A model generated the notes under the pieces. It worked only from the letters and a program-made list of their open reading frames with translations. It was not told where the DNA came from and ran no database searches. A stretch of 64,000 nucleotides of DNA, taken from an uncultured Tateyamaria sp. GTDB lineage: Bacteria; Pseudomonadota; Alphaproteobacteria; Rhodobacterales; Rhodobacteraceae. Location of the stretch: NCBI RefSeq assembly GCF_947488715.1, contig NZ_CANLAG010000006.1, positions 1-64,000 of the forward strand, written 5' to 3'. This document shows positions 32,855 to 40,832 of this stretch, piece by piece. The position numbers and the translations under genes were made by a program. Numbering within the stretch: position 1 is the stretch's first letter; each line of letters starts with the position of its first letter.

Positions 32855-33670
32855 CTAGACATGCGCATGCCCTGCCCGCAGCCCTTCTCGCACGCGGTGC
32901 GCCACTTCCAGAAAGGCCGGGCTTTCGCGAATGTCGAGCGGGCGTTCCTTGGGCAGCGGGCTTTCGATGACGTCTGTGATCCGACCCGGACGGGGTGACA
33001 TGACAACAATCTTCGTGCTGAGGTACACCGCTTCGGGGATCGAGTGGGTCACAAAGGCGATGGTCTTTTCCGTGCGCGCCCATAGATGCAGCAGCTGTTC
33101 GTTCAGGTGATCCCTGACAATTTCGTCCAACGCGCCAAAGGGTTCGTCCATGAGCAGGATATCCGCGTCAAAAGCCAGCGCCCGAGCGATCGACGCACGT
33201 TGCTGCATGCCACCGGACAACTGCCAAGGAAACTTCTTCTCAAACCCCGAAAGCTCGACCAGCTCCAGAACACGGGCCACACGCTCCGCCTGCTCGGCCT
33301 TGTTGTAGCCCATGATCTCCAGCGGCAGCGAAATGTTGCGCCCAATGGTACGCCATGGGTAAAGCCCTGCGGCCTGAAACACATAACCATACGCCCGCGC
33401 CATACGCGCCTGCTCTGGCGTCACCCCATTCACGACAATCGACCCACCTGTCGGCTGCTCCAGATCAGCCATGCAACGCAGAAAGGTCGTCTTGCCACAG
33501 CCCGAAGGGCCAATGAAGGACACAAAGTCCCCCTTCTCAATGTCCAGCGACACGCCCTTGAGCGCATGGACCGGACCATCATTGGTCTGGAAGGTCAGGT
33601 CTAGATTCTGCGCCGAAACAACCGGTGCTGTGGATGCGACCGCGGCCGCAACCGTAGTGCCATGTGCCAT
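32855..33670 (-). CDS. ABC transporter ATP-binding protein, SsuB/NitD type
   Basis: ATPase of 271 residues. Walker A GPSGCGKTTFLRCMADLEQP, Q-loop YVFQAAGLYPWRT, signature LSGGMQQRASIARALA, Walker B ILLMDEPFGALD and the switch His in FVTHSIPEAVYL are all intact and typical of nitrate/sulfonate/thiamine-type importers. Its ATG at 33670 overlaps the dihydropyrimidinase stop by one base (TGATG), so import and catabolism are translationally coupled. Confidence 0.9.
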   Translation of the reverse strand: MAHGTTVAAAVASTAPVVSAQNLDLTFQTNDGPVHALKGVSLDIEKGDFVSFIGPSGCGKTTFLRCMADLEQPTGGSIVVNGVTPEQARMARAYGYVFQAAGLYPWRTIGRNISLPLEIMGYNKAEQAERVARVLELVELSGFEKKFPWQLSGGMQQRASIARALAFDADILLMDEPFGALDEIVRDHLNEQLLHLWARTEKTIAFVTHSIPEAVYLSTKIVVMSPRPGRITDVIESPLPKERPLDIRESPAFLEVAHRVREGLRAGHAHV

Positions 33671-35130
33671 CAAATCCCCGCCGGAATATTCAAAGGATCA
33701 CGCTCGATCATCTTGGGTGCGGTCAACGCCTTCCACTTGCTCAGCGCCTGAGACGCCGACGAAAACGCGGGGCGCGGTACGAACTTGCCCCGCCCAGGCG
33801 AAGGCTGTGAATTCTGCCCCCAGGCCCAGATCACTTCACCACGGCTGAGGGTATAGCGCGACTGCGCCTTCACCTCGAACCCTTCGAACACGTTGTAATC
33901 CAACACCGAATGATGGTTCGCAGGCGAAATCGTCTTGGTGATCTTGGGATCCCACACGACGATGTCGGCATCCGCCCCTTCGACTATCGCGCCTTTCTTG
34001 GGGTAGATGTTCAGGATCTTCGCCACATTGGTCGAGGTTGCAGCGACAAACTCGTTGGGTGTCAGCCGCCCCGTCTCCACCCCTTCGGTCCAGAGCACGG
34101 CAAGGCGTTCCTCCAGCCCGTTTGACCCGTTGGGGATGATGCGGAAATCGTCACGGCCTGCGCGCTTCTGTTCTGTGTTGAAGGCTGCGTGATCCGTGGC
34201 CACCACCTGCAACGATCCGGACTGCAAGCCAGCCCAAAGCGAGTCCTGATGGTCTTTGGATCGGAAGGGCGGCGACATCACGCGCCGTGCCGCATAGTCC
34301 CAATCGGTGTCGAAATACACGCTCTCATCCAGCGTCAGGAACTGGATCAGCGGCTCGCCGTAGACGCGCATGCCCTTCTGACGGGCGCGCCGGATGGCCT
34401 CATGCGCCTGCTCGCAGGACACATGCACAATGTACAAAGGCACACCCGCCGCATCTGCAATGGTGATAGCGCGGTTTGCCGCCTCACCTTCAAACTCGGG
34501 CGGACGGCTATACGCATGCCCCTCAGGTCCCGTAATCCCCTGGTCGAAATACTTCTGCTGCATCTCGGCCACCAGATCGCCGTTCTCGGCATGGACCATG
34601 GGCAGCGCACCCAACTCGGCGCAGCGCTTGAACGACGCGAACATCTCGTCATCCTCGATCATCAGCGCGCCCTTGTAGGCCATGAAATGCTTGAAGGAAT
34701 TGACGCCCATATCGACGGCATCCTTCATCTCGTTGAACACATCCTCGTTCCAGCCGGTGATCGCCATGTGATAGCCGACATCCGAACAGATCTGCGGCGC
34801 CGACTTGCGGTGCCACTCGTTGATCGCGTTCTTGATCGACCCATCCGCACCGGGCAGGCAGAAATCCACGATCATCGTGGTGCCGCCCACCGCGGCGGCC
34901 CAGGTGCCGGACTCAAACGTCTCGGCGGCTGTTGTGCCCATGAACGGCATCTCGAGATGGGTGTGCGGATCGATCCCGCCCGGAATGACATAGGCCCCCT
35001 CGGCGTCGATGTATTCATCGCCCACCAGGTCTTCGCCGATGGCCTTGATCACTTCGCCTTCGATCAGCACGTCCGCTTTCCACGTCCGATCGGCGGTGCA
35101 CACCATGCCACCCTTGATCACTTTGCTCAT
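33670..35130 (-). CDS. hydA: Dihydropyrimidinase (D-hydantoinase)
   Basis: Zn-dependent cyclic amidohydrolase of 486 residues, opening dihydrouracil or dihydrothymine to N-carbamoyl-beta-amino acid. GGIDPHTHLEMPFMG gives the first two metal His, FKHFMAYKG has the carboxylated bridging Lys near residue 151, VHAENGD and IVHVSCEQ give further His ligands, and VVATDHAAFN gives the Asp. The C-terminal tail GKFVPRPAF is the usual tetramer swap region. The gene sits between a small unknown gene and the ABC ATPase. It is the second step of reductive pyrimidine breakdown. Confidence 0.93.
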   Translation of the reverse strand: MSKVIKGGMVCTADRTWKADVLIEGEVIKAIGEDLVGDEYIDAEGAYVIPGGIDPHTHLEMPFMGTTAAETFESGTWAAAVGGTTMIVDFCLPGADGSIKNAINEWHRKSAPQICSDVGYHMAITGWNEDVFNEMKDAVDMGVNSFKHFMAYKGALMIEDDEMFASFKRCAELGALPMVHAENGDLVAEMQQKYFDQGITGPEGHAYSRPPEFEGEAANRAITIADAAGVPLYIVHVSCEQAHEAIRRARQKGMRVYGEPLIQFLTLDESVYFDTDWDYAARRVMSPPFRSKDHQDSLWAGLQSGSLQVVATDHAAFNTEQKRAGRDDFRIIPNGSNGLEERLAVLWTEGVETGRLTPNEFVAATSTNVAKILNIYPKKGAIVEGADADIVVWDPKITKTISPANHHSVLDYNVFEGFEVKAQSRYTLSRGEVIWAWGQNSQPSPGRGKFVPRPAFSSASQALSKWKALTAPKMIERDPLNIPAGI

Positions 35131-35187: not shown

Positions 35188-35508
35188 TCACACGCTTGCA
35201 AAACACCCCAGAGCTGGCCCATGCACCCCAATGTCGAGGGGTCCGAAATCGCTCTCTGCGCAGAGCGAGAAATATCCCGCCCGCGGCAAGTATACCACGC
35301 GGTATGCGCCGTCGCTGCGCGTGACAGTCCAGCATCGTTGCGTGATGCCGCCGCTAAAGTTCACTGTGGTTTCAAACGGTTGGATCAGCGCATCCTCGAA
35401 GGCGCGCACGGTCGCGCGCTCGGCGGCGCTGGTCCGTGGCGCATCCAGCGCCTCAGCTGCGACCAGATCCGCAATACGGTCCGCCAGGCTCAAGTCGGGG
35501 TCAATCAC
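35188..35508 (-). CDS. Uncharacterised 106-residue protein in the pyrimidine operon
   Basis: Small cytoplasmic protein with no signal peptide. GTG at 35508 overlaps the stop of the amidase gene as GTGA, so the frame is coupled to its neighbour and is unlikely to be spurious. The N-terminal half is helical (SLADRIADLVAAEALDAPRTSAAERATVRAFEDALIQ), and the C-terminal half looks like a small beta-sheet (TTVNFSGGITQRCWTVTRSDGAYRVVYLPRAGYFSLC). It ends GPALGCFASV. No family recognised. Its place between steps 3 and 2 of the pathway suggests a regulatory or assembly role. Confidence 0.75.
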   Translation of the reverse strand: MIDPDLSLADRIADLVAAEALDAPRTSAAERATVRAFEDALIQPFETTVNFSGGITQRCWTVTRSDGAYRVVYLPRAGYFSLCAESDFGPLDIGVHGPALGCFASV

Positions 35509-36755
35509 GCGACAATCTCCGCCGTTTCGACCACTGCATGCATCAGCACATCCGCCCCGGCTGCGGCCCACTCTTTGGAAATCTCTTCCGCCTCATTGTG
35601 GCTCAGCCCATCGACGCAAGGGCACATCACCATCGCCGTCGGGGCCACCTGGTTGATCCAGCACGCATCGTGACCGGCGCCCGAGATGATGTTCTGGTGG
35701 CTGTATCCCAGCCGTTCTGCCGCTGACCGCACCGCGCTGACGCAGCCGTCGTCAAAGGCCACGGGGTCAAAGCCGCCAACCTTTTCAAAGGCAATTGTCA
35801 GCCCCATGTCGTCGGCGATCTTCTGGCCCTCGACGCGCAGGCGCGCCTCCATATCCTCGACCACGCTGAGGTCCGGCGAGCGGAAATCGACCGTGAACAC
35901 GACCTTGCCGGGGATCACGTTGCGCGAGTTTGGATAGACGTCGATATGGCCCGCAGCGCCCACAGCATGGGGCGCGTGGGACCACGCAATCTCATCGACT
36001 TTCTCAAGCACCCGCGCCATGCCCAGTCCGGCATTCTTGCGCATGGGCATCGGCGTCGATCCGGTGTGGCTGTCCTTGCCCTCAATCGTCACCTGCGTCC
36101 ACGACAAGCCCTGCCCGTGCGTGACCACGCCAATATCCTTGCCCTCAGCCTCCAGGATCGGGCCCTGTTCGATATGCAGCTCAAAGAACGCATGCATCTT
36201 GCGCGCGCCCACGTCCTCATCACCGCGCCAGCCGATGCGCGTCAGCTCATCACCAAATTTCTTCCCATCCGCGTCGACCCGGTCATAAGCCCAGTCTTGC
36301 GTATGGATGCCCGCAAACACGCCCGAAGACAGCATCGCGGGCGCGTAGCGCGTGCCTTCCTCGTTGGTGAAGTTTGTCACCACGATGGGGTGTTTCGTCT
36401 TTACGTCCAGATCGTTGAGCGTGCGGATGATCTCAAGCCCGCCCAAAACCCCCAGCACGCCGTCATATTTTCCACCCGTAGGCTGTGTGTCGAGGTGGCT
36501 GCCCACATAGACGGGCAGCGCATCGGGATCGGTGCCAGGACGCTGCGCAAACATGTTGCCCATCTGGTCCAATCCCATGGTGCAACCCGCCGCCTCGCAC
36601 CACGACTGGAATAGAGCGCGGCCTTCTGCGTCTTCGTCGGTCAGTGTCTGGCGGTTGTTGCCGCCTGCCACGCCGGGGCCGATCTTGGCCATCTCCATCA
36701 GACTATCCCACAGCCGCTCACCATTGATCCGAAGGTTTTCGCCCGGTGCCGCCAT
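35505..36755 (-). CDS. Beta-ureidopropionase-like Zn amidase (hydantoinase/carbamoylase family)
   Basis: M20-fold amidase of 416 residues from ATG 36755. VYVGSHLDTQPTGGKYDGVLGVLGGLE carries the metal His and bridging Asp, NFTNEEGTRYAP has the catalytic Glu pair, ELHIEQGPILE has a third ligand site, and SGAGHDACWINQ the C-terminal His. The family removes a carbamoyl group from N-carbamoyl amino acids. With dihydropyrimidinase beside it, hydrolysis of N-carbamoyl-beta-alanine to beta-alanine, CO2 and ammonia is the likely role. First gene of the long operon, behind the RutR-type operator. The extended frame upstream of 36755 was rejected. Confidence 0.9.
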   Translation of the reverse strand: MAAPGENLRINGERLWDSLMEMAKIGPGVAGGNNRQTLTDEDAEGRALFQSWCEAAGCTMGLDQMGNMFAQRPGTDPDALPVYVGSHLDTQPTGGKYDGVLGVLGGLEIIRTLNDLDVKTKHPIVVTNFTNEEGTRYAPAMLSSGVFAGIHTQDWAYDRVDADGKKFGDELTRIGWRGDEDVGARKMHAFFELHIEQGPILEAEGKDIGVVTHGQGLSWTQVTIEGKDSHTGSTPMPMRKNAGLGMARVLEKVDEIAWSHAPHAVGAAGHIDVYPNSRNVIPGKVVFTVDFRSPDLSVVEDMEARLRVEGQKIADDMGLTIAFEKVGGFDPVAFDDGCVSAVRSAAERLGYSHQNIISGAGHDACWINQVAPTAMVMCPCVDGLSHNEAEEISKEWAAAGADVLMHAVVETAEIVA

Positions 36756-36790
36756 GTGATGTCCCCTTGTTGCCGATGGTCGATTGCTTT

Positions 36791-36806
36791 TTGACCAATT
36801 GGTAAA
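36791..36806. promoter_or_regulatory. RutR-type operator
   Basis: TTGACCAATTGGTAAA fits the E. coli RutR palindrome TTGACCAnnTGGTCAA at 13 of 14 defined bases. It lies 36 bases upstream of the amidase start and between it and the divergent TetR gene, so it can control both. Confidence 0.8.
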
Positions 36807-36915
36807 GCCACGATTGCCAGCCAGCTCTTTTCTGTCAAGAACTGCTTTGATGTGAATTGCCCAACAGGGGTGCATTTGCCTAGTGTTGCAGCATCCTACC
36901 AGAACAGGACCACTG

Positions 36916-37539
36916 ATGGCCGCCGGGACCGACAAAAAACCAAGCCGCATCCAGATGCGCAACCGCAGCCTGATCCTGGATGCGGCGCTGGACGTGTTCT
37001 CGGTTCACGGGTTTCGCGGTGCCACTCTGGATCAGATCGCCGAAGCGGCGGGGCTGTCGAAACCGAATATCCTCTACTACTTTTCCGGCAAAGAAGAGAT
37101 CCACGTCACGCTGTTGAGCCAGTTGATGGAAACGTGGCTGGACCCGCTGGTCGAGATGGACGCAGACGGTGATCCGATGACCGAACTGCTGGCCTATGTA
37201 CAGCGCAAGCTGGACATGTCCCGTGAATTGCCGCGCGAAAGCCGGTTGTTCGCCGGTGAAATATTGCAAGGCGCGCCCCGCATGCGGCCACATCTGGAGT
37301 CGGACCTAAAGCCCCTGTTCGACGAGAAATGCGCCGTCATCCAGCGGTGGATCGAAGTTGGCAAACTGGCACCCGTCAATCCGCAACACCTCGTATTTTC
37401 GATTTGGGCGACCACGCAACACTATGCTGACTTTGCGGCGCAGATCGGTGTTTTGCTGGAAACGGACGAACCCGCACCGATGGCGGATGCGTTCCTGCGC
37501 GACCTCTTTACCAAGCTTCTGGCGCCAACGATTCCTTAA
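36916..37539 (+). CDS. rutR: TetR-family regulator, RutR-like
   Basis: Protein of 207 residues from ATG 36916. The N-terminal helix-turn-helix ATLDQIAEAAGLSKPNILYYFSGKEEIHVTLL is a canonical TetR domain. The C-terminal domain (ETWLDPLVEMDADGDPMTELLAYVQRKLDMSRELPRESRLFAGEILQGAPR) closely follows the RutR pattern, including RLFAxEILxGAP. RutR binds uracil/thymine and then releases its operator. It is divergent from the pyrimidine operon, with a RutR-type palindrome between them, so it most likely represses the operon until pyrimidines appear. Confidence 0.9.
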   Translation: MAAGTDKKPSRIQMRNRSLILDAALDVFSVHGFRGATLDQIAEAAGLSKPNILYYFSGKEEIHVTLLSQLMETWLDPLVEMDADGDPMTELLAYVQRKLDMSRELPRESRLFAGEILQGAPRMRPHLESDLKPLFDEKCAVIQRWIEVGKLAPVNPQHLVFSIWATTQHYADFAAQIGVLLETDEPAPMADAFLRDLFTKLLAPTIP

Positions 37540-37635
37540 CCTTCATAAACGAAACCCACCCGATTTAACCTTTCGTTCATGCGGTGAGGGCAATTTGTCT
37601 GTGGGTGAGCGGGCGTAAAGTTAAGTGAGTGAGCA

Positions 37636-38094
37636 ATGAATATTCTACCAATCCTCGGGGCAGGTGCCACACCTGCGTCGCAACCAAACGTGTCAGAGCA
37701 ACCGACCGAAACCGAGCAATCCAATCCACAGCCCGCGGCGGCGGAAACCGAAGACACCGCGCCACCGGCACCCGCATCTCAGGCGGCAGAGACGGCGACA
37801 CAGACAACAACGCGTCCCTCAGATCCGCAAAACGAACCGGATAAAGTCGCAGCATTCGCCACATCTGATCGTGGGTCCGCCGTGCAATCTGCCGTCGAAT
37901 CCGCATTGCTGGAAGCGCCAGAAACCTCCGAGGACCAAGCCCGCCGCTTTGCCGAAGCAGCGCAAAGCCGCCAGCGGCTCGAACAACTGATTGAAGCGGT
38001 CAACACGCCGGTGCAATCACCCACGACCTTGTCCGCAGCAACGGCTAATCAAGCCGCCGCCGGACCGACTGAAACGGATGGCGTTCCGGTCTAG
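37636..38094 (+). CDS. Low-complexity protein of unknown function
   Basis: Protein of 152 residues, Pro/Thr/Ala/Glu-rich and probably disordered over residues 10-75. The only ordered-looking segment is RGSAVQSAVESALLEAPETSEDQARRFAEAAQSRQRLEQLIEA (about 80-125), which is helical. No signal peptide or known domain was seen. It lies behind rutR on the same strand with its own AT-rich upstream region (37540-37620), and converges on preA with a four-base gap. Confidence 0.6.
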   Translation: MNILPILGAGATPASQPNVSEQPTETEQSNPQPAAAETEDTAPPAPASQAAETATQTTTRPSDPQNEPDKVAAFATSDRGSAVQSAVESALLEAPETSEDQARRFAEAAQSRQRLEQLIEAVNTPVQSPTTLSAATANQAAAGPTETDGVPV

Positions 38095-38098
38095 CGTG

Positions 38099-39406
38099 TC
38101 ACTCGGCGGCTTTGACCGCTGCCGGATTGTTGGGGTGCGTGGTCCAGTTGGCATAGTCCGCTGCGACCTCGCGCCCTGTCCGCGGATCGGTCAGGCCCGG
38201 CTCCATCGCTTCCATCGTAATGCAGTTTTCCACCGGACAGACGTTGACGCACAAATTGCATGCCACACATTCCGCGTCGATCACTTCGAACACGCGGTCT
38301 GCCGACATTGAAATGGCCTGGTGCGACGTGTCTTCGCACGCGGCATAGCACCGCCCGCAAGAGATGCACGACTCCTGATCTATTTTGGCTTTGCTGACAT
38401 AGTTCAGGTTCAGATATTGCCAGTCGGTCACGTTCGGCACGGCGGCACCGGAAAAGTCCGCGATGCTGCTGTGTCCCTTTTCGTCCATCCAGTCAGACAG
38501 ACCGCTGATCATCTCTTGGACGATCTTGAAGCCATAGGTCATCGCCGCCGTGCAGACCTGTACGTTGCCGCACCCCAGCGTGATGAACTCTGCCGCATCG
38601 CGCCAGGTTGTGACCCCGCCGATGCCCGAAATGGGCAGGCCACGTGTGTCCGCCCCGCGCGCGATTTCCGACACCATCGACATCGCGATGGGTTTCACTG
38701 CTGGACCGCAATAGCCGCCATGCGACCCCTTGCCGTCAATGGACGGCTCGGGCGACATCGTATCCAGGTTCACGGACGTGATCGAATTGATCGTATTGAT
38801 CAGGCTGACAGCATCCGCACCACCCGCCTTGGCCGCTGCGGCAGGTTTGCGAATATCGGTGATGTTGGGCGTCAGTTTCACGATGACTGGCTTGGAATAG
38901 TACTGCTTGCACCACCGCGTCACCATTTCAATGTATTCAGGCACCTGCCCCACGGCAGCACCCATCCCACGCTCTGACATCCCATGTGGACAGCCAAAGT
39001 TCAGCTCGATCCCATCCGCGCCAGTGTCCTCGACCAGCGGCAGAATGGCTTTCCACGCTTCTTCCTCACAGGGCACCATGATGGACACGACCACCGCCCG
39101 GTCGGGATAGTCGGCCTTGACCCGCTTGATCTCTTCGAGGTTGGTGTACAGGTCGCGGTCGGTGATCAATTCGATGTTGTTCAGACCCAGCAACCGCCGG
39201 TCCGCCCCATAGATCGCGCCATAACGCGGCCCGTTCACATTGACGACGGGCGGCCCTTCGGACCCCAGGGTCTTCCAGACGACACCGCCCCACCCCGCCT
39301 CGAACGCGCGGCGGACATTGTATTCCTTGTCCGTGGGTGGCGCGGATGCCAGCCAGAACGGATTGGGGGATTTGATCCCGACGAAATCGCTTTGCAAATT
39401 TGCCAT
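38099..39406 (-). CDS. preA: NAD-dependent dihydropyrimidine dehydrogenase subunit PreA
   Basis: FMN-barrel subunit of 435 residues from ATG 39406 (MANLQSDFVG). DFVGIKSPNPFWLASAPPTDKEYNVRRAF and GADGIELNFGCPHGMSERGMG match PreA/DPYD. Two 4Fe-4S clusters at the C-terminus are seen as CISCGRCYAAC and CVACNLCVNVCPVENC. It reduces uracil and thymine to the dihydro forms in a heterodimer with PreT. It follows preT after a 23-base spacer that carries a dispersed repeat. Confidence 0.95.
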   Translation of the reverse strand: MANLQSDFVGIKSPNPFWLASAPPTDKEYNVRRAFEAGWGGVVWKTLGSEGPPVVNVNGPRYGAIYGADRRLLGLNNIELITDRDLYTNLEEIKRVKADYPDRAVVVSIMVPCEEEAWKAILPLVEDTGADGIELNFGCPHGMSERGMGAAVGQVPEYIEMVTRWCKQYYSKPVIVKLTPNITDIRKPAAAAKAGGADAVSLINTINSITSVNLDTMSPEPSIDGKGSHGGYCGPAVKPIAMSMVSEIARGADTRGLPISGIGGVTTWRDAAEFITLGCGNVQVCTAAMTYGFKIVQEMISGLSDWMDEKGHSSIADFSGAAVPNVTDWQYLNLNYVSKAKIDQESCISCGRCYAACEDTSHQAISMSADRVFEVIDAECVACNLCVNVCPVENCITMEAMEPGLTDPRTGREVAADYANWTTHPNNPAAVKAAE

Positions 39407-39416
39407 TACATCCTCC

Positions 39417-39440
39417 GTAGGGTGCGCATTTACTGCGCAG
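39417..39440. repeat. GTAGGGTGCGCA repeat at the preT/preA junction
   Basis: GTAGGGTGCGCATTTACTGCGCAG overlaps the last codons and stop of preT. GTGCGCA and TGCGCAG form short inverted arms. It is the same element family as at 29439 and 62258. Confidence 0.6.
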
Positions 39441-40761
39441 CGCCCGTCAGGGCTTCGTGAATATCCATCGCCGCATCGCGGCCCTCGGCCACAGCAGTTA
39501 CCGTCAGGTCGTCGCCGCCCGTGGCACAATCGCCACCGGCCCAGACACCGTCAACCGACGTGCGGCCCGCGCCAGTGACCGCGATCTTGCCCCGTTCCAG
39601 GGCCGGCAATCCGTCCCCTTCAAGCGTTTGGCCAATCGCGCGCAGCACCTGATCCGCAGCAACACGCACCGTTTGCCCGGTGCCCGACATCTCGTCGTTG
39701 ACGTATTCAAACTCGATTTCGCGGACCGACCCGTTGCCATGCACGGCCTTGGGCACAACATGAGTCATGATCCGCACACCCTTTGATGACGCCAGATCCT
39801 GCTCAAACACGCTGGCGTTCATCCGGTCGCGCCCGCGCCGATAGGCCAGCGTCACATTCAGCGCACCCAACAGCTTGGACTGCACCGCAGCGTCCACCGC
39901 TGTCATGCCGCCGCCAATCACCACCACATCGCGTCCAACTGGCAATGCCGTCAAATCCCCTGCCTGACGCAGGTCAGCGATGAAATCCACCGCGTCCAGA
40001 ACACCAGCCTTGTCGCCGCCTTCGACGCCCAGGGCGTTCACACCGCCCAGCCCCATGCCCAGGAACACCGCATCATACTGCGCCGACAACTGCTCCAGTG
40101 TCACATCGGTGCCCAAAGCGGTGTCATGGGTCAACGTGATACCCCCAACCTGCATCAGCCAATCCACTTCAGCCTGTGCGAACCCTTCGGGCGTTTTGTA
40201 TGCCGCAATGCCATATTCATTCAGCCCACCGGGTTTCGGCTGCGCATCAAACACAGTCACATCATGCCCCAAAACCGCCAACCGGTGCGCACAGGACAGG
40301 CCCGCCGGTCCCGCTCCCACCACGGCCACCGTTTTACCAGTGACCGCAGCGCGGGAGAACGGATGAATGCCCTGACCCTGCAAATGGTCGGTGGCATAGC
40401 GTTGCAATTGCCCAATCAGCACGGGTTTGCCCTCGGCAACCTCGCGGACGCAAACCTCTTCGCAGAGCGTCTCGGTGGGACAGACACGGGCGCACATACC
40501 CCCCATGATGTTCTGGCTCAGGATGGTCTTGGCCGCCGCATCAGGTGTGCCTGTCGCAATCTGGCGAATGAAAAGCGGGATATCGATGTCAGTGGGACAG
40601 GCCGTCACACAGGGCGCATCATGGCAAAAATAGCACCGATCCGCCGCCACAAGCGCCTCATGCGCGTCCAGTGCGGGATGCAGGTCAGAAAAATTTTCAC
40701 GCAGTGCCGCATCGTCCAAACGGCCCGCCGTCACGCCCGGTGAGAAAGGAGATTGCGTCAT
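39430..40761 (-). CDS. preT: NAD-dependent dihydropyrimidine dehydrogenase subunit PreT
   Basis: Flavin/FeS oxidoreductase of 443 residues from ATG 40761. The N-terminal cysteine cluster CYFCHDAPCVTACPTDIDIP and GGMCARVCPTETLCEEVC matches the GltD-like FeS domain. KTVAVVGAGPAGLSCAHRLAVLGHDVTVFD binds FAD, and DVVVIGGGMTAVDAAVQ binds NAD. It passes electrons between NAD and PreA. The upstream extension to 40938 lacks similarity and was dropped. A RutR-like site is 56 bases upstream, so this pair may share regulation with the catabolic operon. Confidence 0.95.
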   Translation of the reverse strand: MTQSPFSPGVTAGRLDDAALRENFSDLHPALDAHEALVAADRCYFCHDAPCVTACPTDIDIPLFIRQIATGTPDAAAKTILSQNIMGGMCARVCPTETLCEEVCVREVAEGKPVLIGQLQRYATDHLQGQGIHPFSRAAVTGKTVAVVGAGPAGLSCAHRLAVLGHDVTVFDAQPKPGGLNEYGIAAYKTPEGFAQAEVDWLMQVGGITLTHDTALGTDVTLEQLSAQYDAVFLGMGLGGVNALGVEGGDKAGVLDAVDFIADLRQAGDLTALPVGRDVVVIGGGMTAVDAAVQSKLLGALNVTLAYRRGRDRMNASVFEQDLASSKGVRIMTHVVPKAVHGNGSVREIEFEYVNDEMSGTGQTVRVAADQVLRAIGQTLEGDGLPALERGKIAVTGAGRTSVDGVWAGGDCATGGDDLTVTAVAEGRDAAMDIHEALTGAAQ

Positions 40762-40816
40762 ATCCGCTCCGTTGCATCTATCATTACGTAAACAAACGCT
40801 TTCACAGCTCATTATT

Positions 40817-40832
40817 TTTATCAACTGGTAAA
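40817..40832. promoter_or_regulatory. Possible second RutR-type operator upstream of preT
   Basis: TTTATCAACTGGTAAA matches TTGACCAnnTGGTCAA at 11 of 14 positions. It is weaker than the site at 36791 but is placed as expected for repression of preT-preA. The wider 294-base region also holds the promoter of the divergent cold-shock gene. Confidence 0.55.

Follow-up and report, generated by a model that had tools for sequence, protein, structure and literature searches.

A RutR-related TetR-family protein as the probable repressor of the reductive pyrimidine genes in an uncultured Tateyamaria sp.

The reductive pyrimidine locus of an uncultured Tateyamaria sp. was analysed in a stretch of 64,000 nucleotides (nt), positions 1-64000 of its contig, which is referred to below as the window; the host genome comprises 4.13 Mb. 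On the minus strand the window contains preT and preA and, past a divergent gene for a TetR-family protein, hyuC, hydA and the genes of an ATP-binding cassette (ABC) transporter. This TetR-family protein, which belongs to a sister lineage of RutR (lineage A, as distinct from a lineage B found in some relatives), is very likely a sensor of the uracil type that represses both preT-preA and hyuC-hydA-ABC through two operators and is released by uracil (or thymine). The initial annotation had placed a RutR-like TetR protein over these two gene groups, and comparative sequence evidence upholds this assignment, with two conserved candidate operators. RutR-like control of the reductive pathway has already been published, and the window is a further case of this known control. 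The reductive breakdown of uracil and thymine in a large alphaproteobacterial group can now be assigned a regulator, a pair of operators and a probable inducer.

Candidate operators and their conservation

36791-36806, minus strand: candidate operator 1, in the hyuC/TetR intergenic region, TTTACCAATTGGTCAA on the hyuC strand; 13/14 to the RutR consensus, conserved
40817-40832, minus strand: candidate operator 2, upstream of preT, asymmetric, TTTACCAGTTGATAAA on the preT strand; conserved, in one orientation

The first site reads TTGACCAATTGGTAAA and agrees with 13 of the 14 defined bases of the consensus TTGACCANNTGGTCAA, at the coordinates and with the score given in the initial annotation. 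The second, TTTATCAACTGGTAAA, agrees with 11 of 14; its position and score were reproduced as well, but its description as a weaker copy does not stand, as the asymmetry is a conserved directional feature of this site. The letters of TTGACCANNTGGTCAA are those of the initial annotation and were not met in paper text (TTGACCA occurs 0 times in PMC10891134), and the upstream region of E. coli rutR has 11/14 as its own best match to them. With up to three mismatches allowed, the consensus has 9 matches in the window, whereas 100 shuffles yielded 2.32 on average and never more than 7; with up to two mismatches it has 52 matches in the whole genome, and its reversed control has 35. By itself, the E. 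coli consensus thus fails to set these two sites apart in this genome, and the genome-wide motif search proposed with the two sites was a weak test in that form. It gained force with a motif taken from relatives and with conservation across genomes. The degenerate motif TTKAYCRNNYGRTMAA has three matches in the 4.13 Mb (control 1), two of which are the candidate operators, the third (C5:179445) lying inside an open reading frame (ORF) of 316 amino acids (aa). As this motif was drawn from relatives after the sites had been seen, its counts inside the cluster are descriptive, and the weight is carried by the shuffles and by other genomes. One of two further genome sites with one mismatch, C5:338177, was dropped, since it lies inside a 491-aa ORF.

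For the comparison, 149 genomes of the family were searched for the domain PF08362; 128 were positive, and 100 stretches were drawn from 97 of these 128. Upstream regions of hyuC could be cut from 90 of the 100 stretches and those of preT from 66, to which the window was added in each case (n = 91 and n = 67). A site with at least 12/14 agreement was found in 71 of the 91 hyuC-side regions, compared to at most one in any of 50 shuffle sets. The preT-side motif TTTACCRNTTGATAAA was present in 55 of 67 regions, with no occurrence in the shuffle sets and none in the opposite orientation; over the 149 genomes it has 100 sites in 99 genomes, 55 of them known to lie at preT, and its reversed control has 9. 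Within the genus, matches were found in 20 of 20 genomes, and among the matches listed both sites lie 3.5-4.4 kb apart in 14 of 14. Site pairs also occur in Sinorhizobium meliloti pSymB and in Qingshengfaniella. The regulator's own upstream region carries a site of at least 12/14 in 90 of 112 cases, and the protein may regulate its own gene as well. Taken across genomes, conservation very probably marks both palindromes as operators.

Some variation was seen on the hyuC side, where 18 of the 55 A-type sites start with TTTACC instead of TTGACC. Both half-sites read TTTACC at the hyuC operators of eight loci (L079, L091, L105, L108, L112, L116, L118 and L137), and the regulators at these double-TTT sites have Gly at RutR position 61 in 8/8 cases (kinship not removed). 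These loci possibly represent one clade with shifted specificity.

Promoter geometry and proposed mode of repression

40819-40824, minus strand: predicted -35 hexamer TTGATA for preT-preA, contained in operator 2
40796-40801, minus strand: predicted -10 hexamer AAGCGT for preT, 17 nt past TTGATA, with TGA before the box
36833-36838, minus strand: predicted -35 hexamer TTGACA for hyuC-hydA-ABC
36810-36815, minus strand: predicted -10 hexamer AATCGT for hyuC, located 3 nt upstream of operator 1

Both promoters are predictions from sequence. The preT site reads TTTACC[AG]N followed by TTGATAAA and is never reversed, and its inner half opens with TTGATA. An extended -10 element (TGnNANNNT) follows this TTGATA at 15, 16 or 17 nt in 1, 32 and 19 loci, respectively, that is in 52 of 57, and at none of the other spacings between 8 and 29 nt; the same test at random offsets gave 24/1340. 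The inner half-site of operator 2 therefore probably serves as the -35 box too, and this dual role would account for the departure of the preT site from the palindrome. On the hyuC side, TTGAC, a spacer of 15-18 nt and NANNNT, followed by the operator, were found in 52 of 67 regions, compared to 80 of 1820 random positions, and the gap between the -10 box and the operator measures 3-4 nt in 49 of the 52 fitting regions. A B-type regulator is present in 14 of the 15 regions that deviate from this geometry, compared to 2 of the 52 that fit it (L055 and L075).

This geometry suggests how repression could work. In the ligand-free state, one dimer would sit on each operator. At 40817-40832, where the inner half-site coincides with the presumed -35 box of preT-preA, the repressor would bar RNA polymerase from that box, and at 36791-36806 a dimer directly downstream of the hyuC-hydA-ABC -10 box would cover the start site. 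Uracil, or possibly thymine as a second ligand, would upon entry into the cell bind the conserved pocket and release the dimers, and the import system and all three steps of the reductive pathway would be switched on together.

An alternative is that the preT motif is part of the promoter or is bound by a different transcription factor, and that only the hyuC site belongs to the TetR-family protein. Its asymmetry, its agreement of just 11/14 with the RutR consensus and its overlap with the -35/-10-like boxes would fit this explanation. However, the outer half, TTTACC[AG], is nearly invariant although neither box extends into it, and it equals a half-site found at hyuC. Furthermore, motif and regulator co-occur: among genomes of at least 90% completeness, 91 of the 117 that encode a PF08362 regulator have the preT motif, versus 0 of the 15 that do not (Fisher p 3e-9, kinship uncorrected), a difference part of which may be due to loss of preT, as preT itself is possibly missing in some of these genomes. 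We consider this alternative improbable.

Several observations nevertheless weigh against repression of both operons by the TetR-family protein. When all 149 genomes are counted, the preT motif occurs in 3 of the 21 without PF08362 (one of the 21 having been identified by elimination) versus 96 of the 128 with it, these three genomes being less than 87% complete. The exact motif is missing from 12 of the 67 preT regions. Likewise, 20 of the 91 hyuC regions remain below 12/14. In 16 of these 20, no regulator gene begins within 700 nt; a site of at least 12/14 is still found upstream of the regulator gene at 12 of these 16 loci, which speaks for the repressor model. An activator could also use such sites, and for the TetR gene itself no promoter emerged from the analysis.

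Lineage and ligand of the regulator

36916-37539, plus strand: TetR-family regulator of the RutR-sister lineage (A); PF08362 at 158.1 bits (cut-off 25), 43% identity to E. coli RutR, position in the tree

RutR of E. coli is the regulator of rutABCDEFG and carAB. The window protein shares with it the YcdC-like C-terminal domain PF08362, a similar operator, which lies next to the regulator gene, scores 13/14 and is conserved, and a divergent placement beside an operon under its presumed control. The five positions at which uracil is contacted in the structure of RutR (W77, Y97, W167, Q171 and Q179; PMC10891134) are all conserved in the window protein. This WYWQQ set is found in 112 of 113 aligned proteins, the window protein included. 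The protein might instead sense dihydrouracil, N-carbamoyl-beta-alanine or beta-alanine, as the reductive pathway differs from Rut and the alignment to RutR stops at residue 179 of 207; with the five contacts kept, in lineage B too, such a ligand is unlikely but deserves more weight than a foreign factor at preT.

The initial annotation went too far in naming the protein the same regulator as that of E. coli. Both equivalog cut-offs for RutR are missed (TIGR03613, 231.8 against 368 bits; NF011584, 199.6 against 230 bits). For the tree, relatives outside the family were added (299 genomes of the phylum searched, 107 matching PF08362, 60 stretches taken), and 111 proteins were included under a midpoint root, part of the family rows having been left out for size. 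Lineage A is sister to a clade of E. coli RutR and 14 other proteins, with a support of 100/96 for the joint branch and of 100/98 for the RutR clade; 8 of the 14 others adjoin rut genes (L188, L190, L193, L208, L214, L215, L223 and L231), as E. coli RutR adjoins its rut operon. The host genome encodes a single PF08362 regulator and no RutA (best score 49.2 against a cut-off of 498.3 bits). By its scores, its place in a sister clade and the lack of RutA, the window protein is thus assigned outside RutR proper. The S. meliloti pSymB homologue is already named rutR in public annotation (CP090106.1), which would fit a plain RutR orthologue carried over unchanged, but the missed cut-offs, a position beside and not within the rut-linked clade and the absence of RutA make such a carry-over the least probable of the explanations considered.

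A RutR-like repressor of the reductive pathway is known from Pseudomonas putida, where PydR represses the dihydropyrimidine dehydrogenase gene, as reported by Hidese et al. 2012. Like PydR, the window regulator is RutR-like and linked to reductive-pathway genes (preA/preT, hyuC/hydA). The P. putida sequence lay outside our set, in which a regulator beside preT/preA from another Pseudomonas (L179) joins lineage B and those of two other reductive clusters (L204, L205) at a support of 100/96. The relatives of L179 are uniform: the best 80 named loci are all from Pseudomonas and 90-99% identical, and preA/preT are adjacent in 78 of 81. Unlike this regulator, the window protein belongs to lineage A and, on the tree, is not orthologous to the regulator of the Pseudomonas reductive cluster, for which other Pseudomonas species and not P. 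putida itself served as proxy. In an operator search of the 81 Pseudomonas loci, no TTGACC-type site was among the twelve commonest palindromes listed per gene; CTGTCACCGATGACAG was found in 36 of 76 hydA regions. With lineage A beside the RutR clade and the Pseudomonas regulator with B, the reductive pathway appears to be served by RutR-like regulators that come from two parts of the family tree. As at least two separate RutR-like lineages seem to govern this pathway, the label 'RutR' says little on what such genes control.

The accessible passages on RegPrecise (PMC5343134) describe RutR regulons of pyrimidine catabolism as predicted for 68 genomes from 13 proteobacterial taxa and note that the motif varies by taxon; these passages hold no alphaproteobacterial gene lists or motifs, and the case of the window may already be in RegPrecise. 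In the accessible part of PMC4344238 the sole passage on RutR concerns E. coli, and the passages available from PMC3687685 and PMC7142369 do not treat the regulator. Among the top-listed open papers, none was found that deals with this regulator or site in Rhodobacterales, which is not proof of absence, nor was any mention found there of an operator fused to a -35 box or of a two-regulator arrangement.

Second regulator in relatives, transport and neighbouring genes

L055, L066, L071, L074, L075, L084, L088, L106, L111, L113, L115, L119, L122, L127, L131, L138: family loci carrying a B protein

A B protein is present in these 16 of the 100 family loci, and in 15 of the 16 its gene is divergent from hyuC at the hyuC promoter. 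Fourteen of the 16 genomes encode an A protein in addition; the other two contain a second PF08362 hit of unassigned type. Seven loci hold A, B and preT in one stretch, and all of them have an A-type site at preT, exact in L055, L074, L084, L115 and L122 and altered at one or two bases in L088 and L111. On their hyuC side, sites resembling [CT]TGACC....GGTCA[AG] are found. Paired hyuC-side sites 29-34 base pairs (bp) apart occur in 10 of the 16 B loci, and beyond the family L216, L217 and L225 show the same pair at 33 bp. The PydR-like B protein thus seems, from position and motif, to have taken over hyuC while A keeps preT. Three loci count against a clean split between A and B: CTGACCAAATGATCAG also occurs near preT in L115, the preT gene of L111 has a further RutR-like match, TATACCAGATGGTCAA, in its vicinity, and in L088 a B-like site precedes the A gene. 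We regard as evenly balanced the wider proposal that two uracil-sensing repressors of different ancestry share the pathway in some alphaproteobacteria, A acting on preT-preA via one operator that is merged with the -35 box and B on hyuC-hydA-ABC via an operator pair about three helical turns apart, with the A regulon reaching Bmp-type nucleoside/nucleobase transporters in some genomes. Genomes with both regulators are a natural setting in which to study how two repressors that seemingly sense the same molecule divide a regulon.

The remaining genes of the window cluster are as follows.

39430-40761, minus strand: preT, NAD(P)H/FAD subunit of dihydropyrimidine dehydrogenase; PF14691 and PF07992, name taken from the position beside preA
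38099-39406, minus strand: preA, dihydropyrimidine dehydrogenase; NF006183 at 720.8 bits (cut-off 335)
35505-36755, minus strand: hyuC, M20 amidase; TIGR01879 at 394.6 bits (cut-off 204)
33670-35130, minus strand: hydA, dihydropyrimidinase; TIGR02033 at 584.2 bits (cut-off 393.25)
32855-33673, minus strand: ABC transporter ATPase; profile match, a homologous transporter adjoining rut genes in L215
31743-32612, minus strand: ABC transporter permease, start codon uncertain; PF00528
30898-31746, minus strand: ABC transporter permease; PF00528
29874-30863, minus strand: ABC transporter substrate-binding protein (NMT1/THI5-like); PF09084

PreT passed no NCBIfam cut-off among the 25 families listed, and the product of hyuC is probably an N-carbamoyl-beta-alanine amidohydrolase, a substrate suggested by the gene context. 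The gene for the substrate-binding protein co-occurs with reductive-pathway genes in relatives. In another alphaproteobacterium (L215, 424-9000), a homologue of this NMT1-type transporter, with 57-73% identity in its four parts, adjoins rutA-D, rutF and a regulator of the RutR clade. Its link to two unrelated uracil pathways, the second seen at one locus only, supports import of pyrimidine bases, and the window transporter probably imports such a base.

Sites of the same kind were seen near genes for Bmp (PnrA-like) ABC transporters. In the host genome, a 13/14 site (L001 1501-1516; G000:C1:788075-788090) lies upstream of such a gene, and in the host genome and two others of the genus (G150, G157) a 13/14 site is located 200-204 bp before the matched part of the Bmp gene. 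Other Bmp genes with a site 212-277 bp before the matched part were found, among the matches listed, in G152 and G154 and in 3 of 40 other family genomes (G026, G036, G046). In L154 a site lies about 40 bp before the start codon, and the encoded protein is closest to the structures of an atrazine-binding protein and a basic membrane lipoprotein (6pi5, 3s99). Five genus genomes (G149, G152, G158, G163, G165) have a match to the same pattern outside the cluster and away from Bmp genes. An extension of the regulon to Bmp transporters is a lead, most sampled genomes being without such a site and the patterns having differed between searches.

Two small ORFs lie within the cluster. That between the TetR gene and preA (37636-38094, 152 aa) is rich in Ala, Thr, Gln, Glu and Pro and has no family match. 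That between hyuC and hydA (35188-35508, 106 aa) is likewise without a family match, and a tblastn match to it was found in 14 of the 100 family loci.

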